DNA of 64,000 nucleotides from Blepharisma japonicum (lineage: Eukaryota; Ciliophora; Heterotrichea; Heterotrichida; Blepharismidae): assembly GCA_949751835.1 (NCBI GenBank), contig CATKHK010000065.1, positions 62,001 to 126,000 of the forward strand, given 5' to 3'. This document shows positions 37,557-58,315 of the stretch, piece by piece. Within the stretch, counting starts at the first letter, position 1, and every line of letters starts with the position of its first letter. The notes under the pieces are model-generated. The model worked only from the letters and a program-made list of their open reading frames with translations, searched no databases and was not told the origin of the DNA. The translations under genes were made by a program, and so were the position numbers.

Positions 37557-38141
37557 CTATATCCCTGATAAACTATGATTTGATATATTTTCATTCAGTT
37601 TCATAGAAAACCTTTCTTGAGATTTTAGTATTGGCATTAAGAGCTGCTCTTTTATAAGAAAAGTCGGCTTTGGAAACATCATCATAGGGGCACAAGTGCT
37701 TTTAGATTTTTTAACTTCTTTCTGGTCTGGGGAATAAGACTTCGTAATTAAAATGTTTTCAGGAATTCTGAACCTTTTAATTCTGCTAACTGGAATTTGT
37801 ACTACTGGCCTTGCTTTTTTGATGGAATCTTTGGAGTAAATAAAGTCTAAGATTTCTTTTTTTGAAGCATTAAAAGATCTCTCAAAGAATCTTCGTTTGT
37901 TTGAAGGGGTATGTGATTTATAACGAGTTATCTTCCTATTTTCTTGAGAAGTAGCTTGCTCTGTGTGATTTGAAGGAGTCATATTTCGGTGCATTGATTC
38001 AAAGATTGGGGATAATTTGTAGGACTTGTGTGGGTTGGAAGAATTTGAATCATTTAAGTAATTTTCAGCAAATTTCACGATGAATTTCCGCTTGTCCCTT
38101 GTCTTTTCAAGATAGCCTTGCAAGTCGCTTATATCAAGCAT
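37557..38141 (-). CDS. Hypothetical basic protein
   Basis: 194 aa, starting MLDISDLQGYLEKTRDKRKF, no TGA. Rich in Ser, Lys, Arg and Pro, with no membrane segment or known domain; SRIKRFRIPENILITKSYSP is typical of its disordered second half. Convergent with the transporter gene (85 bp between stops). Function unknown. Confidence 0.55.
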   Translation of the reverse strand: MLDISDLQGYLEKTRDKRKFIVKFAENYLNDSNSSNPHKSYKLSPIFESMHRNMTPSNHTEQATSQENRKITRYKSHTPSNKRRFFERSFNASKKEILDFIYSKDSIKKARPVVQIPVSRIKRFRIPENILITKSYSPDQKEVKKSKSTCAPMMMFPKPTFLIKEQLLMPILKSQERFSMKLNENISNHSLSGI

Positions 38142-39929
<1,788 letters not shown>

Positions 39930-40215
39930 GCCTCTTAACTAACAGTCGTTATGACTAATCTTTGCATTGCTTAAAATTTCTTTCTTATTTTATTTTCTAT
40001 GCAATTGAATGATAAATTTTTATCATTGTTTTCACTGTAGGAAGATGTAGATTAAATCCATTTGACGTCATATAACTGCCAGAATGAAATGAAAGAAAAT
40101 TAAAAAAATCCTTATCCTCTCTTCATATATGCTTTATCATTTTATACTAATTATTCGATTTTAAATGGTTTGATATTTTTAAGTGTTTTGCATTTATTCA
40201 ATTACTAATTTTCAA

Positions 40216-42399
40216 ATGGCAGATGATTTTATTGATTATTTGAACTCTTTCAACATCCAAAGCTGCTTAGTGGCTTCTTCTATAGAAGACCTTAAAACTG
40301 GCATCCCTCTCTGTGACTTAATTTCTTATTTTTCCAAAACTCCCGCACTTGAAGGTGTGATACGCAAGGAATCTAAATATATTTCTAAAAAGGAACAAAG
40401 CCTCCACAACCTTCAAATTGCTTTAAATGCTTTGAATTCCTCTTGAACCCCCGAGCAAGTATATCAAAGTCAAGAAATGTTGATTTCTCTTTATAAAACT
40501 GTAGCAAGGATAAGCAAGCCTTCAAATAATCAAAAAATTTTGGAATTTCAAAGCCCAGAAGACAGTCCAAAAGTCCCTCTAAAGAAGAGAAATAGCAATA
40601 TTTGCTCCTTGGGATCATCAATAAGACATGATCCATTAAATTTAAGCTGTCCAGAATATTTCGAAGAAAGCACAGTGGTCCATCCCTCCCCATCTCCAAT
40701 GCCAATGACTTCAAGCATAACTCCAATCACTGAAAATAGAAAATTAATCATTTCTGATTGGCTATTATCAATGGGAATTTTGCCCAAAAATGCAAAATTA
40801 GATGACATTCCTGAAATTTGCAGCGATGGAAAATTATTTTGCGAAATTCTCAATCGAATTGCTGGAAGGACCAAAGCTATACAGGGATATGACAAAAATC
40901 CAAAAACTAAAACAGCAATGAAAGGAAATATCCAAAAAGCTCTCAAATACCTGAAAAGTTTCCCTAAATTTTCTAGTCAAGTTCTATGAGATATAGATCT
41001 GATTGTCAGCTCAGATAGTTACGCAGCTTGACATTTGCTTGATGATATCAGAAATTTTTTCCCAAAATATATTCCAAGAAGTCCAAGCTTATCATTAACA
41101 AGGAAAACTAGGAACAACTCAATTGAAAGAAATAACAGCACTTCTCCTATATTAACTCAATCTTTTGTAAACAATAAATCCCAAGTACTGACTCGCCAAA
41201 CACCAAGTCCAACTCCATCTACTATATACCCACGCTCAACTTCTTATACAAACACTACTACTCCTATTCCTTTTGAAGTTACTGATTCTATGAGTTTAAA
41301 TACCCAGCAAAGAATCAGATCTTGGCTCTCTGGACTAGAACTCGATCATTTATTAGATTTCCAATATAAGCATTTCTTGCAGGACCCGCTGAGAAATGGA
41401 ACTCTTCTTTGTGAAGTTGTGAGTATTTTAGAACAAAAAGTCCCAATTGTTAGAAATCCAGTAAGCATAAATGAAATTAGGAAAAATATAGACAGCGCCA
41501 TGTATGTGCTTCAGAAAAGAAGAGTTCCTATACCTAGCATAGTGCTGAGGAATAAAGATAGCATAATCCAAGGAAATGCTGAGAGCACATGAGGATTATT
41601 ACATTCCTTAATGATCTTATATCCAATGGCCACCAAAAAGCAATCTAATAATGAATCTATGAAGAGAGAAAGTAGCTTGCATAACGACAGCACTTTTTTC
41701 AGCAAAAAGCCAATAACTAGAACATCAAGCTTGGATTTTTCGCAAAGATTAAACATGAGTTTAGTCAACGATAAACCAAATACTAGTACATGAAAAAGTA
41801 GAGGAAACCAAAGCATGATTTTTAACTCATTCAATTCCTCATTACTTAAAAATACAGAAAATAACGAAAACTACCAGTTGAATAGATATGAATCACCTAT
41901 TAATATTTCTGTAAGAAAACTTGTAAAAAATAAGACAAGTGCTTTTGATTGGTTTGATGTTAGCAAAACACTGACCACAGACACGCAAAAAAGTATCATT
42001 AAGTCAATTTTGCCTAATAATTATAAGTGGGTTTATAATATTGGAATCAGCATCCCTAAAAGCTTGGATTTAACAGATGACGTTATAGAAGATTTTCAAA
42101 GCGGAGTTCTTTTGAGCCAAATTGTATCAAAATTAGAAAAATATCCTATAAAAGGCATACAAATGAATCCAAAAACAAGTGCGGCTATGCTGCATAATAT
42201 AAAGATGGCGTTTGAAGTGCTAAAGACCAAAGCAAGCTTTAGCAGCAGATTGATGTTTGTAGAAGAAGAGATTTTGAAAGGAGATGGGAATATAGTGAGG
42301 GATTTACTTGGAGAAATTTTTCGAATATATCGGCATACAATAGCTGTTTTATCAAAATTTAGAAGGGGTAGAATAGTAAAAAGTGAGACATTTACATAA
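40216..42399 (+). CDS. Protein with about four CH-like domains
   Basis: 727 aa from ATG 40216 (MADDFIDYLNSFNI) to TAA, reading several TGA as Trp. Repeated calponin-homology-type blocks occur at residues ~1-80 (LKTGIPLCDLISYFSK), ~175-280 (ISDWLLSMGILPKN, CSDGKLFCEILNRIAGR), ~355-475 (RIRSWLSGLELDHL, LRNGTLLCEVVSILEQK) and ~605-710 (FQSGVLLSQIVSKLEKYP, AMLHNIKMAFEVL). Each has the CH core of a W-containing helix 1, then D/NG-x-LLCE, then a conserved N-I-x-x-A-L helix. Ser/Thr-rich linkers separate them. CH domains bind actin (in tandem pairs) or microtubules (singly). Four spread-out divergent copies do not match fimbrin or alpha-actinin, so a cytoskeletal linker role is inferred only. First and last copies are the most degenerate. 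Confidence 0.8.
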
Positions 42400-42724
42400 T
42401 TTTATTATAAATAATAATCAGTCTGTTTGAAAATCTTTACTAATAGTTTAGATATGATTTTTTTTAATTTATCAGATGATAGCTTATTGATAAGCTTAAT
42501 CATGTATTGATATCAAGCTCTTATATTTTAATCATAAAGAATATATAAGGAAATATATATCAAAAATTACATAATAAATAGCATTATCTATATTTATCTG
42601 CCTTAGGTCTAATTTTAAAATTACTTTGTTAAAAACAGTTAGATTTATAAATGTGGCATTAAATTAATTTTCGTTTTTTTTTGTTATATGCTTCATAAAA
42701 TTTCAATACTTAATAAAATATTAA
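42400..42724. other. Intergenic, AT-rich
   Basis: 325 bp; nothing recognisable. Confidence 0.4.
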
Positions 42725-44368
42725 ATGATAGCTTGCCAACTGCAAGAATGCTTAAGTAATGCTATTTCATTTTGTTGATGAGAATCAATTTCTTGAATGT
42801 GTGAATGTCACTTGAAAGATCATCTCAAAAATAATATCAATTCAAAGCACAAATTTATGTTTTTCAATAATCAAATTTACACTGAAACAAAGCAAGCTAT
42901 TGAAAATGCAGTAGAATTTATTATTGGCAACTTAGAAAGCTATAAGGAGAAACTAATTTCAGCCCAAAGTAATTATGCCTCTAAATTAAGCATTGAGCTG
43001 TCTAAATCCATAGAAAAAATTAATTCAACACAAGAATCTTACAAAAATATTAATATTCTCCTCCAAGAAAACGCAACTGAAAACTGCACATTTATAAAAG
43101 TAATATTATATATTTATAATAAATTTGAAGCCATTGAACTATTTACCAAACATTTGGTAAAAAATTCTTTTGATCCCGAATCTCTGTGCCAAAAATTTCA
43201 ATCGAATAATCTAATAAAAATCCCAGCCAATAGCTTGATTTTTGATATTTTGACGATTGAGAATAGAATAAAAAGGCTTTTATCTCATTGATCAAATTCG
43301 CAATTGATACCTTTTAAAATTCCAATGATGCACCTAGATGACTCTAAAGCTATTTGGGATGAAGTCAAGATTTTGAAGGTATGCATTCAAAAGATTGAAA
43401 ATAATTATCACAAAGCATTATCTACTTATTCGCCTTTGATCCATATGAAAACTAGTAACGATCTTTCTTTGGATTTTTTGCAAAAAATCTATATAGAATT
43501 TTTAAATATAAAAAAATTATTCGAAGTATTCTTAACTCAAAAAGAGATTAGTCTTAATCGTCATGAAAAGATTTTAAGCATATACTGGAAAGGAGGAACC
43601 AACGATATAACAATTGCTTCATTTGACCCTATAATGAGAGAAATCATAATTGATTCAACTACAACTGATGTAGGTAAAGATATGCCAGGCTCAATTGGTT
43701 CATGCTCATCTATTATAGCTTTACCAAATTCTGAGATTTTTTGTTACGGTGTGCACGATATTTATGAGTGTTTTATCATGGACTGCAATCATCATATAAA
43801 GATTATTCCAATATCACATAACTGCAAATTTGCAGGAATTGTATATTTTGAAAACAATATATTTGTCTTTGGAGGTAAGACTAATTGGAAACCGCACCGA
43901 CGAGCAAGAAAATACAATATAGATATGGATAGCTGAGAAAAATTAGCAATGCTACCAAAACCTGCTTCCTCATGTGCATGCTTAGTATATAAGCAAAAAA
44001 TTTTGCATTCAGGGGAAGAGCATAGTGCTCTGTACCTTTATGATATTAAATTAGGTAGCTACTCTGAGGTTTTTAATGGAATAGGCAAATCAAATAAAGT
44101 GTTGTTTAGTTCAGACTCTAAAGTATATATTATTGAAGGAAATGGGGGAATTTATGAAAGTGAAAAAGATAATGAATACAAGTTTAATAGGGCTGGCAAT
44201 TCTTCGCTTTTTAATGGCTCTGGGCAAAGCTATTGAATTAGTAAGTACGGCTCAATTTATTTTAGCAAATGGATTGAAAATTATGGACTTAATTATTATT
44301 GCTTCGATCTAAACACCAAAAAAATAACTCTTGTCAAAGATTTGATATGGCAAGTTTTCTTACCTTAA
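42725..44368 (+). CDS. B-box-like finger / coiled-coil / kelch protein, copy 1
   Basis: 547 aa from ATG 42725 to TAA 44366-44368, with TGAs read as Trp, including a WW from TGATGA. Residues ~4-35 carry a Cys/His cluster (CQLQECLSNAISFCWWES ... CECHLKDH) like a B-box zinc finger. A helical/coiled region follows to ~270 with DSKAIWDEVKILKVCIQKIE. The C-terminal ~270 residues are kelch-like beta repeats (GSCSSIIALPNSEIFCYG; AGIVYFENNIFVFGGKTN; WEKLAMLPKPASSCACLVYK; KVYIIEGNGGIYESEKDNEY). Kelch propellers bind partner proteins, often as ubiquitin-ligase adaptors; here the partner is unknown. The next gene is a tandem paralogue 252 bp away. Confidence 0.85.
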
Positions 44369-44620
44369 TTTATTTATTAAACAGTTTATTTTTTAATACT
44401 CTTCTATTTTGACCCTCAGGTATTGTAAAGTGCTGATAATAGTTCTATTAGTAGTGCATTGAAAAATAATATTCCTAAACTTTTATAAACAAACATTCCT
44501 TCACTTATCATGCATAAAGTCAGGAAACTAATTCCAAATAATAAAATAAAATGTTATAATTGATTAAATAGGAATCGATTTTTGTTTCACCATTAAATTT
44601 CAAAATCCACTAAAATATAA

Positions 44621-46324
44621 ATGGTAGTCTGTCAACATCAAGAATGCTTAGAAAAGGCGATATCATTTTGTTGATGTGAATCAATCTCTTTGATGTGCGA
44701 ATATCATTTGAAAGAACATCTTCAAAATAATATCAATTTAAAGCATAGTTTCAAGTTTTTCCATAGCGAAATATATACTGAAACTATGCAAACTATTGAA
44801 AATGTTATAAAAACTATAATTGATGGCTTAGAAAACTACAATAACAAGTCAATTTCTGCTCAAAGACTTGCTACTGCTAAACTAAGTAATGAATTATCTC
44901 AATCCATGAAAGCTATTATGCTCAGTAAGTCAAAATGGCTAGCACTCCTAGCAGATTGATCACAATATGGGTATACTTTAGCACAAGAATCTAACAAAAA
45001 TACTTATGACCTTCTAATCAAAAACACACTTGAAAATGAATTATTTATTAATTTAATTTTATCGAGCTCTAATAAGCCTGAAGTTATTGAATCGCTCATC
45101 AAACTTTTAATAAAAAATTATTTCAAGCCTGAATTACTTCAAAAAAAAATAAATTGGAAAAACCAAAAACGAAGCAATGCCGAAAAACTTATTTTTAAAA
45201 TTTTGATAACTGAGAAAAATATAAAAGAACTTTTAGCAAGCTGATCAAATTCACCACTGTCACCTTTTAAAATTTCTTTTACATATCTAGATGATTCTAA
45301 AATGCATTGGGATAAAGCTAATGCTTTAAAAGCTGACATTCAAAAGATTGATAAAAGCTATCTCAGAGAGATAAATAATTATTCATCTTCAACTCATATG
45401 AGAGCTAGCAATGATCTTTCTTTTAAAATTTTAAGCAAAATTTATGAGGATTTTCTAAATATTGAAAGTTTATTTAGCCAAACTCTAGATCAAAAAGAGA
45501 TTTATCTTGGTCGACTCGAGAAGATTTGAAACTTATATTGAAAGGAAGTAATAAATACTTTGGCAATAGTTTCTTTTGACCCAAAAACTAACGAAATTGC
45601 ACTCGAAACTTTAAAATTTCAGACAGATGATGACTGGCCTTCTGGAGGCCTAAGTTCATCTATTATAACTCTTCCAAACTCTGAAATTTTTTGTTATACT
45701 GCATGTGATAGGTATAAATCGTTTATTAAGAACTCAGCTGATCAGAAAAAAATCACCATTGAGTCGCCGGACTCTACAAAACTTTATGAAGGCCTCGTTT
45801 ATTTTGAAAATAGTATTTTTGCTTTTGGGGGTTCTACTAATTGAAATATTTTCGGGTCTGCAAAAAAATACAATTTAAAAAAAAATAGATGGGAAACATT
45901 AGCACCATTACCTAAGCCTGCTTCCTCATGCTCTTGCATAGTATATAAGCAAAAGATTTTATTATCAGGACGAGATAATAAATCATTATACCAATATAAC
46001 ACAGCAATCAGTAGTTATTCTGTGATCCTAAACAGCTTATGCAAATATAATAAATTGTTATTTAGCTCAGGCTCAAAAGTCTACATTATTGAAGGATTAG
46101 GAGGAATTTACGAAAGCGAAAAAGAAAATGAATATAAATTTACTGTGATTAAAAATTCAATCTCTTGTAATGGATACGGACAAAATTCATGAATCAGCAA
46201 AAATGATTCAATTTATTACAGTATGTGGTATGAGCATTATGGGATTAAATATTATTCCTTTAATCTAAAAACCAAAAAAACAATCCTTGTGAAAGAATTG
46301 ATATGGAATAATTATTTACCTTAA
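44621..46324 (+). CDS. B-box-like finger / coiled-coil / kelch protein, copy 2
   Basis: 567 aa from ATG 44621 (MVVCQHQECLEKAISFCWCE) to TAA 46322-46324. Collinear with copy 1 in the Cys/His finger (extra Cys at the second W position), coiled region and kelch repeats (SSSIITLPNSEIFCYTACD; EGLVYFENSIFAFGGSTNW; WETLAPLPKPASSCSCIVYK; KVYIIEGLGGIYESEKENEY). Many conserved Trp are TGA. The middle region has ~20 more residues than copy 1, which accounts for the length difference. Only 27 bp separate its stop from the ATG of the RING gene downstream on the same strand, the tightest same-strand spacing in this island. Confidence 0.85.
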
Positions 46325-46351
46325 TTTATCAATAAAATTAAATTTTTCAAT

Positions 46352-47863
46352 ATGTGACTTATAAGTCTTATATTTTTCTCGCTCACAAATAATATAGCTT
46401 GCCAAGTATTGACACAGGATTCTCAAATTGAGTATACATCATTTACAGTGACAAATGATATGATATCAAAAGATTTAATAATCCAGCTTTCGTCAAAATC
46501 TCAACAAACCCCAGTGCTATTATTAGTCAAAGAAGGCGCGAAGCCAAGCTTTTATTTTAATAATACGGCTGATTTATATCATGCTGATGCTGATTATGAA
46601 GATTTCCAATCATGAATTCAAAATTCAGACAGTTCTTATGTAACCATTAAGGAAGATAGCCTTACTGTTGGAAGTACGTTTTACATTGGAATTTATTCTG
46701 AAAATTTAGGAATTTCTTATTCTATATCTAAGTACTCAAAGACAGACATCAATGCATGCATTCCAGAATGCATCTCTGCAAATTATAGCACTTGTGCGAA
46801 TGGTGCTTGTCAGTGTTCTGGAAATTCTTCAGGCTATGACTGCAGCATTATGTATACAGTCATAAATTTTGAAGATAATAGGACTTATTCTATGCAGCCT
46901 AACCAATGAAATCTTTTTATTTTTGATTGCCGCAGCACCTATGGCTTTACCATAAACATTGATAAATATACTGGAGATCCAAAATTTTACTTTGCTCCAT
47001 TTTTATCAGACTTGTATCTACCTAGTATGTTTTTTGAATCATTTTATTTAACTTTTGGAGAAGCTGAAACACGGTTAAGTAAAGATGAGTCAGATAATCA
47101 GTGGGGATTTTGAACTTATTCCGTTTTTTGCCATGGAGAAAATAGCTGCGAGTTTTCAATAGAAATTGATGATTACTCTCAATCACTGAGTACTAAACTT
47201 ATATGATGAATAGCTGTTATTGCTATTGTTTCATTTTTATTGTGCATAATAACTCCTTTTGCGATAAGATCTATAGTAAGGGCCAGATATGCTCAAACAG
47301 CAGAAACGAATCTTCAGAGGCAACCAAAGCCATTAACGTCAGAAGAAATGGAGCTCCTTTTTCCATCTGTTGAATGAAATAAACTAGGTAAAGAAGAAAA
47401 TACATGTGCTGTTTGTTTAGAAGATTTTGAAGATAGCGCAAAAGTCCGAAAATTAAGCTGTGACCATGTTTTTCATTCAATCTGCATCGACGAATGAGCA
47501 AAGTCAAAGGCAAAATGTCCATTGTGCAAGAAAATAATGATTTGTGAAGAAAATAGAATTGATTCTGTCTTAGTATTACCAAGAACAAATTCACAATCAG
47601 AAAATCTGATTAGAGATCAGCACCAAGAGAATGAGGAAAGTAATGAAGAAGAGAAAGAAGAAGAAAAAGAAGAAGAAAAGGAAAAAGAAGAAAGTTTGAG
47701 AAATGAGAAAGATGAAAAAAACTTTGAAGGTGAATATTTAAATGAAAATAAAGAAGAAAATGAAAATATAAAAGAGATAGAGTTTGATGAAAATGAAATA
47801 ATTATTCGACGTAAGAAAAAAAGACGTGAAAACACAAGTGATGAAGAGATAATACTAAGCTAA
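46352..47863 (+). CDS. Membrane RING-H2 E3-like protein, copy 1
   Basis: 503 aa from ATG 46352, two codons earlier than any TGA-free reading would allow: MWLISLIFFSLTNNIAC (W2 = TGA) is a signal peptide. A lumenal/extracellular domain follows, containing DADYEDFQSW and an EGF-like Cys cluster at ~135-155 (CIPECISANYSTC, CQCSG). A membrane span lies at ~283-306 (LIWWIAVIAIVSFLLCIITP; WW = TGATGA). A cytosolic RING-H2 finger sits at ~352-395: CAVCLEDF, CDHVFHSIC, then the E2-contact Trp in IDEWAK (TGA), CPLCKK. The tail is Glu/Lys repeats. The ectodomain-TM-RING layout is that of transmembrane ubiquitin ligases such as RNF13/GRAIL, though the ectodomain here is not clearly a PA domain. Paralogous to the minus-strand gene at 50286. 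Confidence 0.9.
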
Positions 47864-48653
47864 TTGTAATTATGTAAATGCAAAAGAAACTATTGATACA
47901 TATTCTGTGCAAATGCTATAATAAGTAATTCTTCAAATTAAGGATAGAACTATAAGCTTGGTCCTTTCATTGTAAATGCTACAGACTTCTCCTTATTATA
48001 TATTCAAGCCATTAATCGCAGCATTATATTTTTGCAAGCACCTATTTTAGCCTGTCTTTTTTAAAATTGTATAAAATGCAGATAAATTTAGCATTTTTCA
48101 GAAATCCATTTTAATATCAAGATTCATTTTCAATTTTTTCAAAGTTAAACCTGTTCTCTTGCGCAACTTTTCCAATGGAATTACTTCAGCTATTTATTTT
48201 TTAAGCCAAAGCAACACTTTAACTATGGGGCCAGGCTCTTTACAGGCTTTATTATAGCAATCTCATTATCTAATACCTGAATTAGCATTAATATAAAGTT
48301 TTACAGCACAAAGCCTTTCTACACCTCTAGATAACTACTTTATAGGCAAACTAATTCTTATTCAATCATATTTACATATCAAATTTCAGCTATTTTTCAA
48401 TCAGACCCCCATCAAATGAATACAAAAGCATCTCCCTATTATAACAAAAATATGAAGAAAAATTATTCCTATGATATCAATTATGGCTCATAATTATAAA
48501 AAAATTATTCAGCCCGCTCAGCCTGTTTCTTGGTTACTCAATAGCCTGTGTTTAATATTCTACCCTCTTCAGAAAAAATCCACCAATAGTTTTCAAGATT
48601 GCCAAAAAAATGGTGATTTTAGCGTGGAATTTGAAATGAAAATTATAATTAAT
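47864..48653. other. Intergenic, AT-rich
   Basis: 790 bp. Short frames only. An in-frame extension upstream of the H1-like gene from 48471 has no histone-like composition and is taken as leader DNA. Confidence 0.45.
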
Positions 48654-49181
48654 ATGGCTAGAGCAGCACCAAAATCAAAACAAACAAGCAAAGCAGCAGC
48701 AAAGAGAGCAGCACCAAAGAAGGTCATTACCAAAAAGGCAGCAGCACCTAAAAAGGCAGTTGCCAAAAAGCCAGTCGCCAAGCCTAAGGTTGAAGAAAAG
48801 AAGGTAGAAGTTGCAGCAAAACCAGCCCCAGCTCCAGTTTCAAAGAAAGCTCCAAAGAAAACTGCACCTAAGAAAGCGCCAAAAGTAGCACCAAAAAAGA
48901 CTGTACCTAAATCACCAAAATCTCCAAAGTCACCAAAGTCTCCTAAGGTTGAGGCAGTCCCAGAGCCTGCACCTGTTGAAGAAAAAAAGACACCAGCTAA
49001 GTCTGTTGACAAATCTCCTAAACCAAGTGCTAAAAAATCAGGGCCTACTCCTAAGAAAACTACAACTCCAAAGAAATCCCCAGCGAAGACACCTAAAAAG
49101 ACTCCTGGGAAATCAGCAAGCAAAGCTTCAGCTTCTAAAAGTGTTAAATCATCAGGAAAGGCGATATCCCGCAAAAAATAA
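48654..49181 (+). CDS. Histone H1-like Lys/Ala/Pro-rich protein
   Basis: 175 aa from ATG 48654 (MARAAPKSKQTSKAAAKRA) to TAA. Composition is almost wholly Lys, Ala, Pro, Ser and Thr, with SPK/TPKK motifs (a run of four SPK units near the middle, and TPKKSPAKTPKKTPGK later), the DNA-binding and CDK-target motifs of linker-histone tails. No winged-helix globular domain is present, as in known ciliate macronuclear H1. It should bind linker DNA in macronuclear chromatin, and phosphorylation of SPK/TPK sites is expected from the family. The upstream in-frame ATG at 48471 is rejected because the 61 added residues are of unrelated composition. Confidence 0.85.
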   Translation: MARAAPKSKQTSKAAAKRAAPKKVITKKAAAPKKAVAKKPVAKPKVEEKKVEVAAKPAPAPVSKKAPKKTAPKKAPKVAPKKTVPKSPKSPKSPKSPKVEAVPEPAPVEEKKTPAKSVDKSPKPSAKKSGPTPKKTTTPKKSPAKTPKKTPGKSASKASASKSVKSSGKAISRKK

Positions 49182-50285
49182 ACTGCCTAAATAATAAACT
49201 TTCCATTTTATAATTTGTAAATTATGACGAATAGGTGTCATCCATTTTAAACATGCGTTTTAACTTTCGTAAGATAAAATTAAATTAATACCATGAAATA
49301 GAGAAATCTTCGGCTCTTATAACGCCACAGAAGCATAATAAGTATATAAAACTTGCCAATGCTTTTATGATCCTAAATTCTAAAATTGAAACCTTAGGTT
49401 AAATTATGACAAGAGTCATTGCATATTAGTATTCACTTAAATTAAATGCAATAGGCTTATTTTATGCAGGGCAAGCTTTCGTTTCAAAATTATTTTGCAA
49501 GTTTAAGGAAGCTAGTATTTAGATGGCAAGTGATTAACACTATAAAATAAAAAATTATATCAAAGGGTGACTCATTTTACGAGGTTGTTAATGGCTCATA
49601 CTTAAAAAAATTTGTAATCGAGTTATTTTTAGTGGATGGATAGATTTCCAACCAAACAATGCCAATTTTGCTTATAATGAGTAGCGCTATAAAAGTTAAA
49701 GTTCGTATCAAAGGGTATTATTATTATTATTATTTGGGGAGCTGCTGATGGCTATCATATGTTTAAAAATTAAAAGTTTGTAATCGAGTTGTGTTTTGGC
49801 AAAAGGATATTTTTCAACGAAGCAATGATAATTTGCTTATGAAGAGTGACAATATAACACCAAAGTTTGTATCGAGGAATGATCGCTGTTTGAGGAGTTG
49901 CTAAATAAAGAAGTCTATAAAGTGGTATAGGCCTAACTGTCTTTTAATCTTTTAAACAAAAATTCCAGCATTTGCTATACATTCATTAAATAGTTATTCT
50001 ATGAACTATTTGAATTAGATTTTATTTAAGGTGAGAAAATTAAGAATAGCAAAATTATGTTAAGTATTTGATTTGTTTTATGAAGAGTGATGTGTGATCA
50101 GTAATGGGTCGGTGGGAAAATTCGAGCAAAGGACTGCAGGGCAATAATTTGCATATATATTATATCTATATTCAGTTTTATATGCTTATACTAATATTAA
50201 AAGCTTCGATTTAAGGGACAATTTTTTAACTTATATCATTTTATACATTCAAATATTAATGGAAAATAAATATCTTAGATTAATT
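49182..50285. other. Large intergenic space holding the tandem repeat
   Basis: 1,104 bp between the 3' ends of the H1-like gene (plus) and RING copy 2 (minus). Apart from the tandem repeat at 49558-49910 nothing is recognised. It is the longest gene-free stretch inside the kelch/RING island and lies near its axis of symmetry. Confidence 0.5.
49558..49910. repeat. Decayed tandem repeat, ~150-160 bp unit, about 2.3 copies
   Basis: Unit 1 starts at 49558 (TATCAAAGGGT), unit 2 at 49706 (TATCAAAGGGTATTATTATT) and a partial unit 3 at 49870 (TATCGAGGAATGATC). Matching internal blocks in order: GAGGTTGTTAATGGCT / GAGCTGCTGATGGCTATC / GAGGAGTTGCTAA; TTTGTAATCGAGTT in units 1 and 2; TTTCCAACCAAACAATG / TTTTCAACGAAGCAATG; TTTGCTTATAATGAGTAG / TTTGCTTATGAAGAGTGA. 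Unit 2 has an ATT microsatellite insertion. No coding capacity is evident. Confidence 0.75.
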
Positions 50286-51929
50286 TTACTTCTTTTCATT
50301 GGCAATTTCTGATTCTGAGTCTGACTCTGAGTCTGAGTCTGATTCTGATTCCTTACTTTTAAATATCGGTATACGCTTGTTTATGTTTGTAGCATTCTTT
50401 TCGTTTTCAACCTTGTTTTCGTTTTCAACCTTCTTATCAAATTCTATTGCTTTTTTTTCCTCTTGCTCTTTAAATTCTTTTGAATTGCTTACTGAATTTC
50501 CAGTTTCTCCCTTAATTTGCTTTCCTCCATTTTCTTGATCTTTAACTTCATCAATTTTCTTATCTTTTACTTGCTTTTCTAAAAGGACAATTTCTTTCTG
50601 ATCGATTGGCTTGCTAGAATTTACAACCTCAGCAGGATTATTTTGATCATTGCTCTTTTTATCAGAGGAACCTCTTGAAGGTGTTGAATCTTCAACACTT
50701 TGATCCTTATCCTGTATTAGTTTCTGCTTGCATACTGGGCATGAGCCATTTGACTCACATCATCTATCAATGCATTTTAAATGGAAAATATGTTTGCAAT
50801 TTAGCATTCTCGCCTTTTCTCAGTTTTCAAATGCCATGGAGCAAAAAGAGCAAATGCTAAACTCTTTTCCAAAAATAGCCCATTGCATTTCAGGGAAGTA
50901 ATCATCCATTTCAAAGCCAGTTAAACATCTTTCCTTTTCTTTAACTATTCTTGCCTCATTTTCTTCCTTAACCTGCTTGCAGCCTTTCCTGCATACACAG
51001 AAAACCAATCCTAGAAATGGAAGGCCAACACAGACGCAGAGTGGAACAAGTCATGTAGCTATAAAACTAGAGCTGTCTGAACTCTTCCTTTCGATTATTA
51101 TACTGAATGTACAATTATCATCAATTTTTGGACAATGAACTCCATACATTAAGTAATCTATATCATTCTCAACTCCCTTCTTGATAGTATCATTTTTCTT
51201 AAATGCTAATGTGAAATTATTTGCAAATACACCTGGCAAGTATCCTTTTATATTAGAATTCTTAGATAAATTTTGAAAATATAACTCTGGCTCTCCTAAT
51301 CTTCTGTCCAGTTTTATAGTGTAGTCTTTGCCCCAAGTGTCATAATAAAAGAAGCTTCAATTATCCGATTTTAGTGTAACTGTTTTATTTTCTCCATCTT
51401 TTGTTTCATTCAAATGGGTATCACATAGCCTTCCTAAATACTCTCTAGAATCGCAATAGCAACTTCCATTTTTGCATTCTTTCGCATTCTTACTACATTC
51501 AGGATAACAATCAACAGTCTCATTTTTAGTGCTATTTGTAATCCAATACGTAACTGGCAGATACTCTGAATAAACTCCAATATTTCAGACATCTCCATCT
51601 TTTAGTTTGCTCTTAGGAAGAGTTATCAAGCTTGAAGTCTGATTTCTACTTCATGCTTCAAAATCGTTATAGTCTGCATCATAATCATAGGTGCCATTTA
51701 TTTCATTGAAACTAAAGCTTGGATTTATAGTTTTTTTCATTAGAAGTAGCATAGGAACTTGCTTATCTTTTGTTGATAATTCTATTAAAATGTCACTTTT
51801 CCAAAAGAGAGTGCTGTTATCAATTGGCAATTGAGTAAAAAACATCGTGGAATCTTGCGTAACTTGCTCCCTGGCAGCTATTCTTGCAATCAGAAGAATT
51901 TCTACCAATTTGACAAAATTATAGAACAT
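50286..51929 (-). CDS. Membrane RING-H2 E3-like protein, copy 2
   Basis: 547 aa from ATG 51929 (MFYNFVKLVEILLIARIAA, signal-like) to TAA 50288-50286, open with TGA as Trp. The ectodomain is clearly homologous to copy 1 (SDILIELSTKDKQVPMLLLM; YDYDADYNDFEAW; EGF-like CYPECSKNAKEC and CYCDS). A membrane span lies at ~288-312 (TWLVPLCVCVGLPFLGLVF) next to a basic Cys-rich juxtamembrane stretch. The RING-H2 is at ~360-403: CSFCSMAF, CKHIFHLKC, IDRWCE (Trp = TGA), CPVCKQ. The long Lys/Glu tail ends in alternating Ser-Asp/Ser-Glu. It lies in opposite orientation to copy 1. Expected function is ubiquitin transfer at an endomembrane; substrates unknown. Confidence 0.9.
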
Positions 51930-52374
51930 ATTTATTACAAAATATCCTGGATTGCACAGTTATCTATTCATGAAAAAGATGTCCATCCCAATTAAATAAA
52001 GCTAAGAGCGAGTGAAGACTTTCATTTGAATTGATGATGGAGTCGCAACAAAGACTTAAAAATTTCAAGCATTAAGGAAAAGTTATTAAATCCCTTAAAA
52101 AACTTATAAAATATTCCATAAATACTCATATATAAAGAACCATAATAATGCATTTAAGATACTTTGCACGAATTAGAGAATAAATGCGTGCAATTATGCT
52201 TTGGGCTAGAATCCAGCCATCTATAAATAATAGGTTATTATAAAAAAATATCAATTTATATCCAGAGGAGTGATTAATAAAAAATTAGATTCTATTTGCA
52301 AGTTTAAACATTTGATAGAAATTAAAGAAAAAAATTAATTCAGCTTCGAAGAAACTCAGATGAATATCATTTGA
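51930..52374. other. Intergenic, AT-rich
   Basis: 445 bp upstream of RING copy 2 and downstream of kelch copy 3; no supported feature. Confidence 0.4.
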
Positions 52375-53718
52375 TTACGAAATGCTGATCTTTCTATCCA
52401 AAATTAGTTTCTTTGTTTCCAAATCAAATCTGTAAAAAATAGTATTATCATACGATGCTGCTCCCACAAAGATTGAATTATTATTATAAGTTCTGGAAGA
52501 CATTAAGCCAATTATTGGATTTGAAATGCTAATTTCATTTCAATTATATTCATCAAGAAGCTCGCTTTCATATGTCTTATCACAAGAGTTGAAAACATAG
52601 GCTCTTCCTTTTGCTGATATTAAAACTTTGTTATAGCTTAAATTAAAAGTGAGCACTTTCGAATAACTGTTTAATTGGATGTCATACTTATATAGACTGT
52701 CATGATTACTACCAGAAACTAATATGCTTTCTTTGAAAGCCAAGCAAGAGCAGAAAGGAGAATTTTTAGGCATTGAACAAAGTTTACTTCATTTTTCTCG
52801 TTTTAAATCAAACTTTTCCACAGAGTCCAAATCTTTAGTTCCAAATCCACCGAAAACGTAAACATTATCGTCAAAATATATGGACCCGCACATAAATCGA
52901 GGTTGTCCTGATTTTAATATTTTTACATCAAATTGAGAATTAATTATGCATGTTGTCCCTCTTGCAGGATATTCATTTCCAAAACAAAATAACTCACCAT
53001 CAGGAAGCTGCGTAATGCACGTTCCTATTGAAAGCTGTTTTTGAAAGTTAATCGTTCTAAATTCTTGTGTTTTGGTTTCTGTGTCATATATTATAAAATT
53101 TCCTTCATCGCAAAGATCTTTAGGAAATAAATATAGTTGCTTATTTTTATAAATATCAAAACTTCTTTTTTTATGAACCAGTTTTTTCAATAAATTTTCA
53201 AACTTCTCAAAAATTTTGAACTGACTAAAATAAACATTAAGTAAATTCTTAACATCTGAATAACTATTCATAAATAACTCAAAATTTCTATAGCTTTGAA
53301 GATAATTTCTAATCGTTTGGCACTCTGCTTTCAAAGATGCAATTAAATAATGGATTTTATCAATCTCTGATCATTTTTCAATAAATTCATCATAGCAAGA
53401 GAATGTTAAACAGAACTGCTTATCAGTGAAACAATAAAACTTCCCTATTAGCTGATTGAATTCTTTTTTCAAATTATTAATTTCATAAATATTTTTTGCC
53501 ATTTCCTCTAAAAATTTATCTACTAGATGCTGTGCAATTTGTTCATCCTGTAAAATTGAATCATTTCTTTTATCAAAATATTGGCAAGTGGCTTTTATTG
53601 TTTCAAATAATGCATTTTTATCAGTTTTACTCCAATTTTGAGGTATTAGATCTTGATTTCTCTTTTCACTACAAGAGTTTAAATGACTTAATTCATAGAA
53701 AAGATGCTCATTTTCCAT
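52375..53718 (-). CDS. Kelch protein, diverged copy 3
   Basis: 447 aa from ATG 53718 (MENEHLFYELSHLNSCSEKR) to TAA 52377-52375, continuous through TGA codons. A coiled-coil N-terminal half (DEQIAQHLVDKFLEEMAKNI) is followed by kelch-like repeats that align with copies 1 and 2 (GTCITQLPDGELFCFGNE; CGSIYFDDNVYVFGGFGT; CSMPKNSPFCSCLAFKE; KAYVFNSC-like block with TYESELLDEYNW). The N-terminal Cys/His finger of the plus-strand copies is absent, so the protein is ~100 residues shorter. It runs opposite to copies 1 and 2. Probably the same propeller role; loss of the finger suggests a changed partner. Confidence 0.82.
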
Positions 53719-54048
53719 TTTGATTTATTTAAGAAATATGTATAAACATATGCCACTTAAAATAAGCTGATTAATAATTCTAATACCCATTCCAAAATTC
53801 TTCTTTTTTTTATGAGGTTTTATAAAAGACTTAAATATTAAAGATTGATTATTAGTATCAATTTAGCATATAAATATTAATATTAAAGGAGATGTTTTTT
53901 TAGAGTGAACTACTTTCATTCAATTTAAAATTATAAAAACGTTTGCCAGAATGAATGTGAGCTCCTCTTTCATTAAAGATTATCAGGCTTCCTAAAGTCT
54001 TCTATTGATATTTATTTCCAAGCATGGACATCTCCACCTTTGATTCAT

Positions 54049-54417
54049 CTAAAATAAATTCAATCTCTCTAATTTTATGAAAATCTTTATTGTATTTTCT
54101 TCAAAATCGTAAGAATGTCTAAAGAAAGACTCTATATCCTGAAATCAAAATATTAACTTTAAAAATAGACTCGATCAATACAACCAATTGCTGATTTGAA
54201 CTAATTAATATTATTTGAGTTCAAAATCAAAATGTTCTAATAGATTTAAAGATTTCTTGAATAGTCTATTCTTCAAAGGAATAATATATAGATCATTTGC
54301 TGGAAAATCCAAGGAAATAATACATGTAATTTCATTAAACTTATGATCAATTGCACTAATTAAAATATTATTCTGTCTCCCAAATATTAAATGAAAGTAA
54401 TTAGTTTCTTTAATTTT
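54049..54417 (-). pseudogene. Coding-like fragments, probable gene relic
   Basis: Two minus-strand stretches look like protein but lack starts and are closed by TAA/TAG: 54417-54211 (KIKETNYFHLIFGRQNNILI ... EHFDFELK, stop) and about 54200-54049 (ISNWLYWSSLFLKLIF, DIESFFRHSYDFEEN, stop; one W is TGA). No normal short intron links them to each other or to the small ORF upstream at 54482-54772. A decayed gene, or a real gene with an indel in this sequence, would both fit. Confidence 0.4.
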
Positions 54418-54481
54418 CTATAGGAGTGTAATTTTTGAAAAGATTTTTCAAAATAGGTTCTGCTTCCTGAGAACAATAATT

Positions 54482-54772
54482 TTATATAAGTGTCCCTAAA
54501 ATTAGATAAGAAACACCAATTCCACTTCCAACTAGCAAATAAGCACCTACTTTTTTCCCCAAAGGCAATTTATAAATTTTTTTAGAGCTAAGAGCTGTGA
54601 TAGTTAAATACATAACTGGAAGCTGAGAAAGATTTTGCATTCATCAGCCTTTGTTATAAGCCTTTTGAAGTATATCATATTCTTCCGCTTCTAAGTCTTC
54701 AGAATCTTTAAATGTTCGTAGTTGTGATCGTATTAATTCACCTGAGAAAAGAAAGTCGACCACCCAATTCAT
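54482..54772 (-). CDS. Small membrane protein, possibly 5' part of a broken gene
   Basis: 96 codons from ATG 54772 (MNWVVDFLFSGELIRSQLRT), through TGATGA (read WW), to TAA 54484-54482. The last ~45 residues are hydrophobic with two likely membrane segments around a basic turn (LPVMYLTITALSSKKIYKLP; VGAYLLVGSGIGVSYLILG). The same frame stays open for 23 codons past the TAA (EAEPILKNLFKNYTPIEN), and coding-like fragments follow. It may therefore be the start of a longer gene that is broken or wrongly sequenced rather than a complete small protein. Confidence 0.45.
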
Positions 54773-55087
54773 TTTATTAAATCATAAACTTTTGGCAAAT
54801 CGAATAAATAGTAGCAATAAGTAAATTATTTATTTGATACAACACGAATTTAAAAACTAACTCCCACTTGAGCCTATTAATATTAAATATCTCGCGTTAA
54901 ACTAGAGTCATACAATCATGAAAAGGAGTGTCAAGTTCTAAAGCTTGAGGTGATAATTATTTGATTGAATTGTTATTTTTATTAGAAACTTTTTCTTATA
55001 AATTATTATTCGAATTAGATCAGCAAAATCTACAAATTATAAGATAATTTCAATTAGAATTGTTATATAGCTAATCATGCAATTTTT
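54773..55087. other. Intergenic, AT-rich
   Basis: 315 bp; no feature recognised. Confidence 0.4.
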
Positions 55088-55486
55088 CTAATGCCTCGTC
55101 GATAAATAATTAACAGCATCTTCAATATTGTCAAATTTTTTTGCTGCTATTTGAGCATTAATTGGGGAATATCCCATATTCTCTAATTCTTCTTTAAGTC
55201 TTATTTTATCAATGCTATTAAGTGATCTTTGCTGATTATTTGCGTTAGGATATGGGGGTCCTCTTGGAGCTTGATTTTGGGCTGGCCTTTGATTATAGTT
55301 AGGGATAGATTGGGTAGGTGGAATAATAGGAATCGGTGGTGGGGAAGTTAAATCTAGATCTACTTGAATTCTAACATCATATTGCATTAATTGTGCAGCT
55401 AGCTGATTGGCTTCTACTATGCTACCCTGGTTTATAGCTTTTTCGAAGGCTTGACACAATGCTTTTTCCCATTCTATGTTGTCCAT
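55088..55486 (-). CDS. Small UBA-domain protein
   Basis: 132 aa from ATG 55486 (MDNIEWEKALCQAFEKAINQ). The C-terminal ~42 residues are a UBA-type three-helix motif (KEELENMGYSPINAQIAAKK, then FDNIEDAVNYL), with the MGY/F loop typical of ubiquitin-associated domains. A Pro/Gln/Asn-rich linker (SPPPIPIIPPTQSIP) joins it to a short N-terminal helix. UBA domains bind ubiquitin or polyubiquitin, so it may act as a shuttle or adaptor, but there is no UBL domain as in classical shuttles. No TGA, no visible intron. Confidence 0.78.
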   Translation of the reverse strand: MDNIEWEKALCQAFEKAINQGSIVEANQLAAQLMQYDVRIQVDLDLTSPPPIPIIPPTQSIPNYNQRPAQNQAPRGPPYPNANNQQRSLNSIDKIRLKEELENMGYSPINAQIAAKKFDNIEDAVNYLSTRH

Positions 55487-56228
55487 TTTAATTAATATAA
55501 CTTTTTAGTTAATAAGTAAATATAAGATAATTGTGAATATCAATAAACTTCTTGATGATATAGATTTTGGTATTTTTGTATTATTTAATTAAAATTTTTA
55601 TAATTTATTTAAAAGAACCATTTTTTATAAATGATTTCGCCAATTTCTATCCTGACTATTAAAATGGATTTTATAGATATAATAATCAGCATAAACCAAA
55701 ATTTTATTAGAAACCCAAAAAAAAAAGAAATATATAGTTGAAATTATGAGTTATTGCTCAAAATTAAAACATAAATGATTGAGCAATGGCACTTGGTATC
55801 AGAACAAGCGCCTCCTTTAATAAAGAAATATCAAATCAAAATCAATCATTATAAGTGCTATAATTTAAAATTAGAGTAAATAAATTATGTTTAAAAAATC
55901 AAGAATGCTGAGAGGGTGAAATTTAAATTAATTTTTAATTTTTTCAATATTAAAATTCAGGATGAGTGCAAATAATTCGTAAATAAACAAATTTCTTTAA
56001 TAAATCTATAAAAAAATTTTGTAAAAGCAAATTTTATTCGCTATTTGCGCTAAATAAATTCTATTTAAAAGATCATAAGCAACTTTAATAATTTCATATT
56101 TTATTTTCTTTATGCTGCTTAAGTTTCCAAGGTAATTTATTATTTTATATAATAAATTAAATAACTAAATGATGTCTAAGCTCATATAAAGCGCTGTATA
56201 ATTGTCTGATAAAGCAAATTCAAAAAGA
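55487..56228. other. Intergenic, AT-rich
   Basis: 742 bp, very AT-rich, no supported frame. The T-run at 56222-56226 (AAAAA on plus) lies just past the tRNA 3' end and can serve as its Pol III terminator. Confidence 0.45.
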
Positions 56229-56300
56229 TGGATTAACCGGGGATTGAACCCGGGGCCTTCTACTTGCGAAGCAGATGTGATACCACTTCACCATTAACCC
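56229..56300 (-). tRNA. tRNA-Ala (anticodon CGC)
   Basis: A 72-nt cloverleaf folds without mismatch. Acceptor GGGTTAA/TTAATCC with the alanine-identity pair G3:U70; D stem GTGA/TCAC; anticodon stem TCTGC/GTAGA (one G:U) with loop TTCGCAA, anticodon CGC; 5-nt variable loop; T stem CCGGG/CCCGG with loop TTCAATC; discriminator A73. No intron. CCA is not encoded. A T5 run six bases after the 3' end on the coding strand is a normal RNA polymerase III terminator. It reads codon GCG. Confidence 0.95.
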
Positions 56301-56458
56301 ATTGATAACTATAATAATTTTTCATCACTTTTATATTCATTAAGTGTTTATTTTAGCTGAACTCTGTTTAAAAGCTATTTAAATCGCATTATTTTTATAA
56401 ATTGAAGCCACATATATTATGAAAATAAAGCAAATCATGTTTGTCTTATTATTTCAAT

Positions 56459-56896
56459 CTAATTGTTTTCTTCTTCTTTTGGCTGCCCAACAATAGACTT
56501 TTTTATTTGGTGCTTTATAAAATAACTTCCTTTTTTTTGAATTTGCTGCCTTCGCTTTAGTCCTTTTAGCTCAACTTCTTTTCTATTGCACTTATCTTTA
56601 ATTTCTTCCACCTCTTTAGCTAATTTAGCTTTGCGAACTTTTTGCACCATTATTGCTTCTCTAAGCTCATATAACTTTAGCTGAAGCGTAGTCAAAAGCT
56701 CAGGCAAATCGATTTCAGGCTCTGGAAGCAACAAAGAAGGAATATTCCGTTTTATTGAATCATTTTCTATTTTCAGCTCCTCCACACGTGATTTAGCTTC
56801 TCTAAGATCTAAACTAGCAAGAATTAACGCTTTGTGTAAAATTTTTTGCTCTTCTTCCAATGAATCGATATTTTTTGGGTTTTGCAATTTTATCAT
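56459..56896 (-). CDS. Short coiled-coil protein
   Basis: 145 aa from ATG 56896 (MIKLQNPKNIDSLEEEQKIL). Two coiled-coil segments are separated by a Pro/Leu hinge (IPSLLLPEPEIDLPELL), and the C terminus is basic. No TGA. Such small hinged coiled coils occur among axonemal and basal-body proteins, but no family was recognised. Confidence 0.65.
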   Translation of the reverse strand: MIKLQNPKNIDSLEEEQKILHKALILASLDLREAKSRVEELKIENDSIKRNIPSLLLPEPEIDLPELLTTLQLKLYELREAIMVQKVRKAKLAKEVEEIKDKCNRKEVELKGLKRRQQIQKKGSYFIKHQIKKSIVGQPKEEENN

Positions 56897-56969
56897 ATTT
56901 AATATAAAATAGACGAATCATTTTCTAAAATCAATTATTTATAAACTATAAAATCATGCAACTAATAAA

Positions 56970-58315
<1,346 letters not shown>

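Follow-up and report, generated by a model that had tools for sequence, protein, structure and literature searches.

What produced the mirror-like order of kelch and RING-H2 genes in one stretch of the Blepharisma japonicum genome, and does their pairing reflect a shared function? The 64,000 nucleotides that we analysed, hereafter the window, correspond to C65:62001-126000 of a genome assembly of 45.2 Mb in 224 contigs, and they carry an island of three kelch genes (K1, K2 and K3), two RING-H2 genes (R1 and R2) and one gene for a protein resembling linker histone H1 (H1-like). A preliminary description of the letters alone had read the island as an old inverted duplication followed by tandem duplication of kelch genes on the left arm, and had proposed a co-working membrane ubiquitin system. 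Having compared the island genes with their paralogues, all within this single ciliate genome, we consider it likely that the mirror order goes back to an old duplication that left a small gene cluster on both C65 and a second contig, C11, together with local clustering and rearrangement, and not by inverted duplication.

The island and its counterpart on C11

All six island genes are single-exon open reading frames (ORFs) when TGA is read as tryptophan; most are open along their length only with that reading, and the H1-like gene has no TGA at all. Read in this way, the gene kinds, order and strands given earlier were borne out: K1, K2, R1 and the H1-like gene follow one another on the plus strand, and an intergenic repeat separates them from R2 and K3 on the minus strand. 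Pfam assigned zf-RING_2 to R1 (3.5e-13) and R2 (2.6e-10), and kelch to all three K genes. The features of the island are:

42725-44368, plus strand: K1, 547 aa, with an N-terminal zinc-finger-like block, a helical middle and a kelch propeller; tandem partner of K2
44621-46324, plus strand: K2, 567 aa, architecture as K1
46352-47863, plus strand: R1, 503 aa, RING-H2 (Pfam) with an acidic tail
48404-48462, plus strand: non-coding block 5' of the H1-like gene, 85% identical over 60 columns to its C11 copy
48654-49181, plus strand: H1-like gene, 175 aa, rich in Lys, Ala, Pro and Ser
49540-49910, no strand: intergenic DNA that includes a short direct repeat
51929-50286, minus strand: R2, 547 aa, of the R1 family, a long branch
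53718-52375, minus strand: K3, 447 aa, kelch

K1 and K2 share 52% identity from end to end (52-55% by two comparisons), in agreement with the tandem duplication proposed for the left arm. K3 shows 34% identity with K1 and 27% with K2, for the most part in the propeller; the shared propeller described for the three kelch proteins thus holds, but K3 is without the N-terminal zinc-finger-like block. R1 and R2 are 32% identical over 476 columns running through ectodomain, hydrophobic segment and RING, in keeping with the relationship noted between their ectodomains.

The nearest relatives of most of these genes, however, lie outside the window and not on the opposite arm. For K2, tblastn ranked the gene itself and K1 first, followed by C11:328771 (1.6e-46), C11:326073 (1.1e-43), a C149 gene and then K3 (4.6e-27). 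The best match of R1 was C11:340072 (45%, 1.6e-125), followed by two C60 genes, two C7 genes and then R2 (33%, 6.1e-60). The H1-like protein was found at two places in the genome, the window itself and C11:338887-339408 (73%). Among the matches listed for K3, C2, C36 and C59 were best, with C11:330799 next, and neither K1 nor K2 was among its 94 listed matches, which comprise scored candidates only. The C11 segment contains:

C11:325569-327227, plus strand: KA, kelch
C11:328759-330420, plus strand: KB, kelch
C11:330559-331836, plus strand: KC, kelch
C11 ~331.9-338.4 kb, minus strand: large ORF, separating H1' from the kelch genes
C11:338884-339414, minus strand: H1', copy of the H1-like gene
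C11:339982-341556, minus strand: R1' (R_C11), sister of R1 in the RING tree

When C11 is flipped, R1', H1' and the large ORF read forward and KC, KB and KA read in reverse, such that R1' and H1' are collinear with R1 and the H1-like gene. The C11 copies of the K1/2-type gene, R1 and the H1-like gene all fall within ~16 kb. DNA similarity between the two contigs, in collinear order, extends over R1 (64% over 1138 columns) and over the H1-like gene with ~95 nt upstream (73% over 667 columns). Additionally, the 60-column block listed above lies ~250 to 190 nt before the H1 ATG in both copies (window 48404-48462; L070:5606-5664) and is a candidate regulatory element. The island is thus a case of several neighbours whose nearest paralogues adjoin elsewhere. 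Beside R1' on C11 we also noted three small RING-only ORFs of 105-118 aa (L070:8382-8738, L071:954-1271 and L071:2043-2360), whose RING is 43-53% identical to that of R1.

Copied cluster or inverted duplication

Trees were built for the RING family (16 rows) and for the kelch family (42 rows, hits >80 bits, a selection that leaves out many kelch members, L076-L080 among them). R1 grouped with R_C11 (support 100/98), and K1 and K2 with KA and KB (100/98), so the members of the two arms, which were expected to be each other's closest relatives under inverted duplication, are not. R2 fell within an eight-member clade without a firm place, joining the C7b and C60b genes weakly in the free tree (77/78 and 58/94), K3 joined a C174 kelch gene (83/66), KC joined a C2 gene (82/62), and R_C60a paired with R_C7a (86/98). 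The approximately unbiased (AU) test rejected a clade of R1 and R2 (p=0.024) and a clade of K1, K2 and K3 (p=0.025). An inverted duplication that occurred after the C11 copy is therefore rejected, at modest strength. The same test did not reject R1+R2+R_C11 (0.206), K1+K2+KA+KB+K3 (0.463), K1+K2+KA+KB+KC (0.253), K3+KC (0.441) or all six kelch genes together (0.401). At the DNA level, the left arm gave no clear blastn match to the reverse-complemented right arm (best E=0.018), and the inverted pairs within the island region were 20-38 nt long, with none longer, though an old inverted duplication could have lost its arm-to-arm DNA similarity.

Divergence at synonymous sites (dS), given here as rough Nei-Gojobori estimates with the ratio of nonsynonymous to synonymous divergence (dN/dS), was 0.99 for the H1 pair (dN/dS 0.16), 1.71 for R1/R_C11 (0.25) and 1.81 for K2/KB (0.40), values compatible with one old event. 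K1/K2 (dS 1.1, dN/dS 0.30) and KA/KB (dS 0.16, dN/dS 0.61) are compatible with separate tandem events; R1/R2 and K3/KC were saturated.

Since R1, K1/K2 and the H1-like gene all have their nearest copies on C11, we propose that one K1/2-type gene, R1, the H1-like gene and the DNA upstream of the latter were copied as a single cluster in one old duplication, giving the C65 and C11 copies. Each copy would then have been rearranged and have acquired its own tandem kelch pair, K1/K2 in the window and KA/KB on C11. R2 and K3 would be older, more distant members of the families of R1 and of K1/K2, and the mirror order would thus be an outcome of clustering and rearrangement. In this account R1 and a K1/2-type kelch gene duplicated together once, between C65 and C11; the joint duplication of kelch and RING genes suggested earlier did occur, but not between the two arms of the window. 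The island mostly reflects ordinary gene-family evolution.

Several observations weigh against this account. Relative to R1 and H1, the kelch pair lies on one side in the window and on the other on C11, where a large ORF also intervenes between H1' and the kelch genes; the copied cluster thus requires extra moves. The comparison covers a single ciliate genome, which gives neither a date for the event nor the ancestral order. The AU rejections are of modest strength (p values of 0.024-0.025), and R2 sits on a long branch; R2 or K3 could have branched just before the C11 copy (p 0.206 and 0.463), and the best tblastn match of R2 is R1 (8.3e-59), with C11, C60 and C7 genes close behind. Finally, dS values of 1-1.8 are near saturation.

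Some of these points bear on the alternative that survives best, in which kelch and RING genes underwent inverted duplication before the C11 copy, and C11 then lost the counterpart of R2 and kept that of K3 (KC). The unrejected placements of R2 with the R1+R_C11 clade, of K3 with K1/K2/KA/KB and of K3 with KC fit such a history, as do the ranking of R1 as the top match of R2 and the collinearity of R1, H1 and an inverted K3 with R1', H1' and an inverted KC. The free trees, however, place R2 with C7b and C60b, albeit weakly, and K3 with the C174 gene; the best listed matches of K3 precede KC and exclude K1 and K2; and no trace of an inverted repeat was seen in the DNA. We regard this earlier inversion as unlikely.

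Somewhat more doubtful still is a large-scale or whole-genome duplication that gave rise to the C60/C7 pair as well and of which the C65/C11 block would be a remnant. In its favour, paralogues of the CH-domain gene to the left of K1 (window 40216-42396, plus strand) occur at C60:239-242 kb and C7:693-695 kb, ~27 kb and ~52 kb, respectively, from the R1-type RING pairs of those contigs, and R_C60a and R_C7a are paired in the RING tree. Paralogues of the CH-domain gene are also present on C94, C40 and C89, though, and for two other window genes the best paralogues lie elsewhere, such that one of the three flanking genes tried fits, and loosely. Moreover, among window ORFs of at least 60 aa outside the island, none matched the 24 kb of C11 compared, at E 1e-4.

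The stretch between the arms was correctly described as containing a repeat, here a direct repeat with a 166-nt step near 49.6-49.8 kb. The idea that 49.5-49.9 kb is a dispersed repeat was rejected, as a genome DNA search with 49540-49910 matched only itself. A search of window 38000-58000 against Rfam at gathering scores returned one tRNA and nothing else. Three units of the telomere-like repeat CCCTAACA gave 168 overlapping matches in the genome, of which those listed fall close to or at contig ends, and a control gave 0. The macronuclear genome of Blepharisma stoltei is reported as 41 Mb and 66% AT, with UGA encoding Trp, CCCTAACA telomeres and introns of 15-16 bp (PMC9942806). By these resemblances, the assembly analysed here would be the macronuclear genome of a Blepharisma-like heterotrich.

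Kelch and RING neighbours across the genome

We then considered kelch/RING adjacency as a general feature of the genome. RING places comprised 150 from a genome list and 17 from the R1 tblastn search, merged to 163 (161 after removal of two C7 double counts; the positions of six genes are approximate), and kelch places comprised 77 from the K2 list and a further 65 from the K3 list, 142 in total. These lists are lower bounds, with 957 and 1030 first-look candidates. A kelch match lay within 5, 10, 15 and 20 kb of 6, 10, 18 and 22 of the 163 RING places, compared to 5.0, 9.9, 14.7 and 19.3 expected under uniform placement; the window is among these cases, as is C11 from 10 kb on, and so are the C22 and C30 arrangements described below. 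The observed numbers are close to the chance rate, and a co-working kelch–RING pair is therefore unsupported, as is pairing as a genome-wide rule. A search for further adjacent pairs with close relatives of both families did yield one, on C11, but this is the copied segment itself and therefore lends no independent support to a working pair. Around the R1-type RING pairs of C60 and C7, the list shows no kelch match out to 20 kb, and their ~1.5-kb flanks contain, by eye, no kelch-looking ORF.

Other arrangements were also seen. At C22:86-115 kb, six RING matches on one strand lie between two kelch matches, and none of the six is in the R1 match list. At C30:336013-337518, a RING match follows a kelch match by less than 1 kb on the same strand, and the two may be a kelch-RING fusion. 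To the left of the island, at a distance of a few kb, is a polyubiquitin gene of about five repeats (window 38784-39904, plus strand), and on the right side is a small ORF (55091-55486, minus strand) whose UBA-like match falls below threshold; in both cases nearness is probably coincidence.

That the kelch and RING proteins of the island form a joint membrane ubiquitin-ligase module, with their genes kept together by selection, is very improbable: the co-duplication of R1 and a K1/2-type gene within ~16 kb on C11, the C30 arrangement and the ties of the kelch family to the U-box (below) can be cited for it, but kelch neighbours of the listed RING genes occur at the chance rate, the C60 and C7 pairs have none listed within 20 kb, and the block conserves the H1-like gene equally well, which means that kelch and RING are not set apart by linkage. 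The membrane ubiquitin system of the preliminary description is accordingly unsupported beyond that single co-duplication, and there is no evidence that makes the kelch, RING and H1-like proteins one machine.

Predicted properties of the encoded proteins

R1 has, by eye, a hydrophobic N-terminus, an ectodomain with an EGF-like cysteine cluster and one hydrophobic segment. In the eight R1-family proteins aligned, Pfam detected zf-RING_2 in every member, and the RING ligands C352, C355, C370, H372, H375, C378, C389 and C392 were invariant, as were W382, P390 and K393. Such Trp, Pro and Lys residues serve E2 binding and activation in known RING ligases. A RING profile search matched structures of RLIM, RNF13, RNF38 and ZNRF3; the structure prediction for R1, made with R2, had a mean pLDDT of 40.8, too poor for a fold search. 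With all RING-H2 zinc ligands kept, R1 and R2 are probably membrane E3 ligases, to judge from their sequences. They would be single-pass ubiquitin ligases, with an ectodomain that may bind an outside or lumenal partner and a cytosolic RING. This layout of N-terminal ectodomain, one hydrophobic segment (by eye) and RING-H2 resembles that of the PA-TM-RING E3 ligases (RNF13, GRAIL and ZNRF3). Unlike those proteins, the R1 family has ectodomains with repeated blocks around the EGF-like cysteine cluster; the complete Pfam tables for R1, R2 and R_C11 list no PA domain, nor is one among the 25 of 38 families listed for the eight members, and no Pfam family exceeded the cut-off in the ectodomains of the former three.

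K1 and K2, each built of a zinc finger-like block, a helical stretch and a kelch propeller, belong to a family found at 142 or more places in the genome. Nine aligned N-termini share C4, C9, C17, C26, H29 and H33; the pattern is C-x4-C-x7-C-x-C-x6-C-x2-H-x3-H in K2, KA and KB have x5, and K1 has W for one Cys. By eye this block looks B-box- or AN1-like, although it was not recognised by Pfam, nor did the alignment match PDB profiles up to E=10. The model of K2, made with K1 and K3, has long helices and a mean pLDDT of 44.3, too poor for a fold search. The finger-like block, helical stretch and propeller of K1, K2, KA, KB and their relatives resemble TRIM/RBCC proteins with beta-propeller ends, but K1, K2, KA and KB have no RING, the finger is not recognised as a B-box and the propeller is of the kelch type. 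Similarly, profile matches to KLHL20, KLHL12 and KEAP1 recall the BTB-kelch CUL3 adaptors (KLHL), but Pfam found neither BTB nor BACK in K1-K3 or KA-KC.

Two other kelch members, C36:17840 and C31:110094, have a U-box in the same ORF (Pfam, 5.4e-19 and 1.1e-11). The ORFs with U-box (Pfam), helical stretch and kelch are:

L025:1483-3093, minus strand
L034:1486-2793, minus strand

Counting both fusions, four kelch places have a U-box on their own strand no more than 1.5 kb upstream, compared to 0.12 expected; the other two of the four are on C3 and C12. It is thus kelch itself, through the U-box in kelch ORFs, and not its pairing with RING, that is tied to ubiquitin. For part of the family, a role of the kelch propeller in ubiquitylation, by way of fusion, is probable. 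K1 and K2 are likely to be soluble proteins whose propeller picks substrates or partners, and by extension may act in ubiquitylation; partnering with R1 or R2 has no support beyond the one shared copying event.

The H1-like protein gave no Pfam match at E up to 1, and thus no winged-helix globular domain was found. The macronuclear linker histone Hho1 of Tetrahymena likewise resembles an H1 tail in composition and has no globular domain that can be recognised (PMC6957481). The protein here is likely to be a linker histone of this kind, differing from Hho1 in having two gene copies, on C65 and C11.

A far-reaching possibility, to which we assign only a slight chance, is that heterotrichs employ a very large "module-helical-kelch" family, in which the module is either a U-box or a finger of B-box/AN1-like type, as the ciliate counterpart of a TRIM repertoire, and that the K1/2-R1-H1 cluster, duplicated and maintained as one unit together with the conserved element upstream, brings adaptors of this type together with a membrane RING-H2 ligase. 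In titles and abstract openings on kelch with B-box, U-box, RING or TRIM in ciliates and protists, no such system was found.

Collectively, these data indicate that a mirror gene order can be explained without inverted duplication once the genome-wide nearest paralogues are known. The conserved block 5' of the duplicated linker-histone-like gene is one lead; another is a kelch family with varied N-terminal modules, including the U-box, which would make a large ciliate ubiquitin-ligase repertoire testable.

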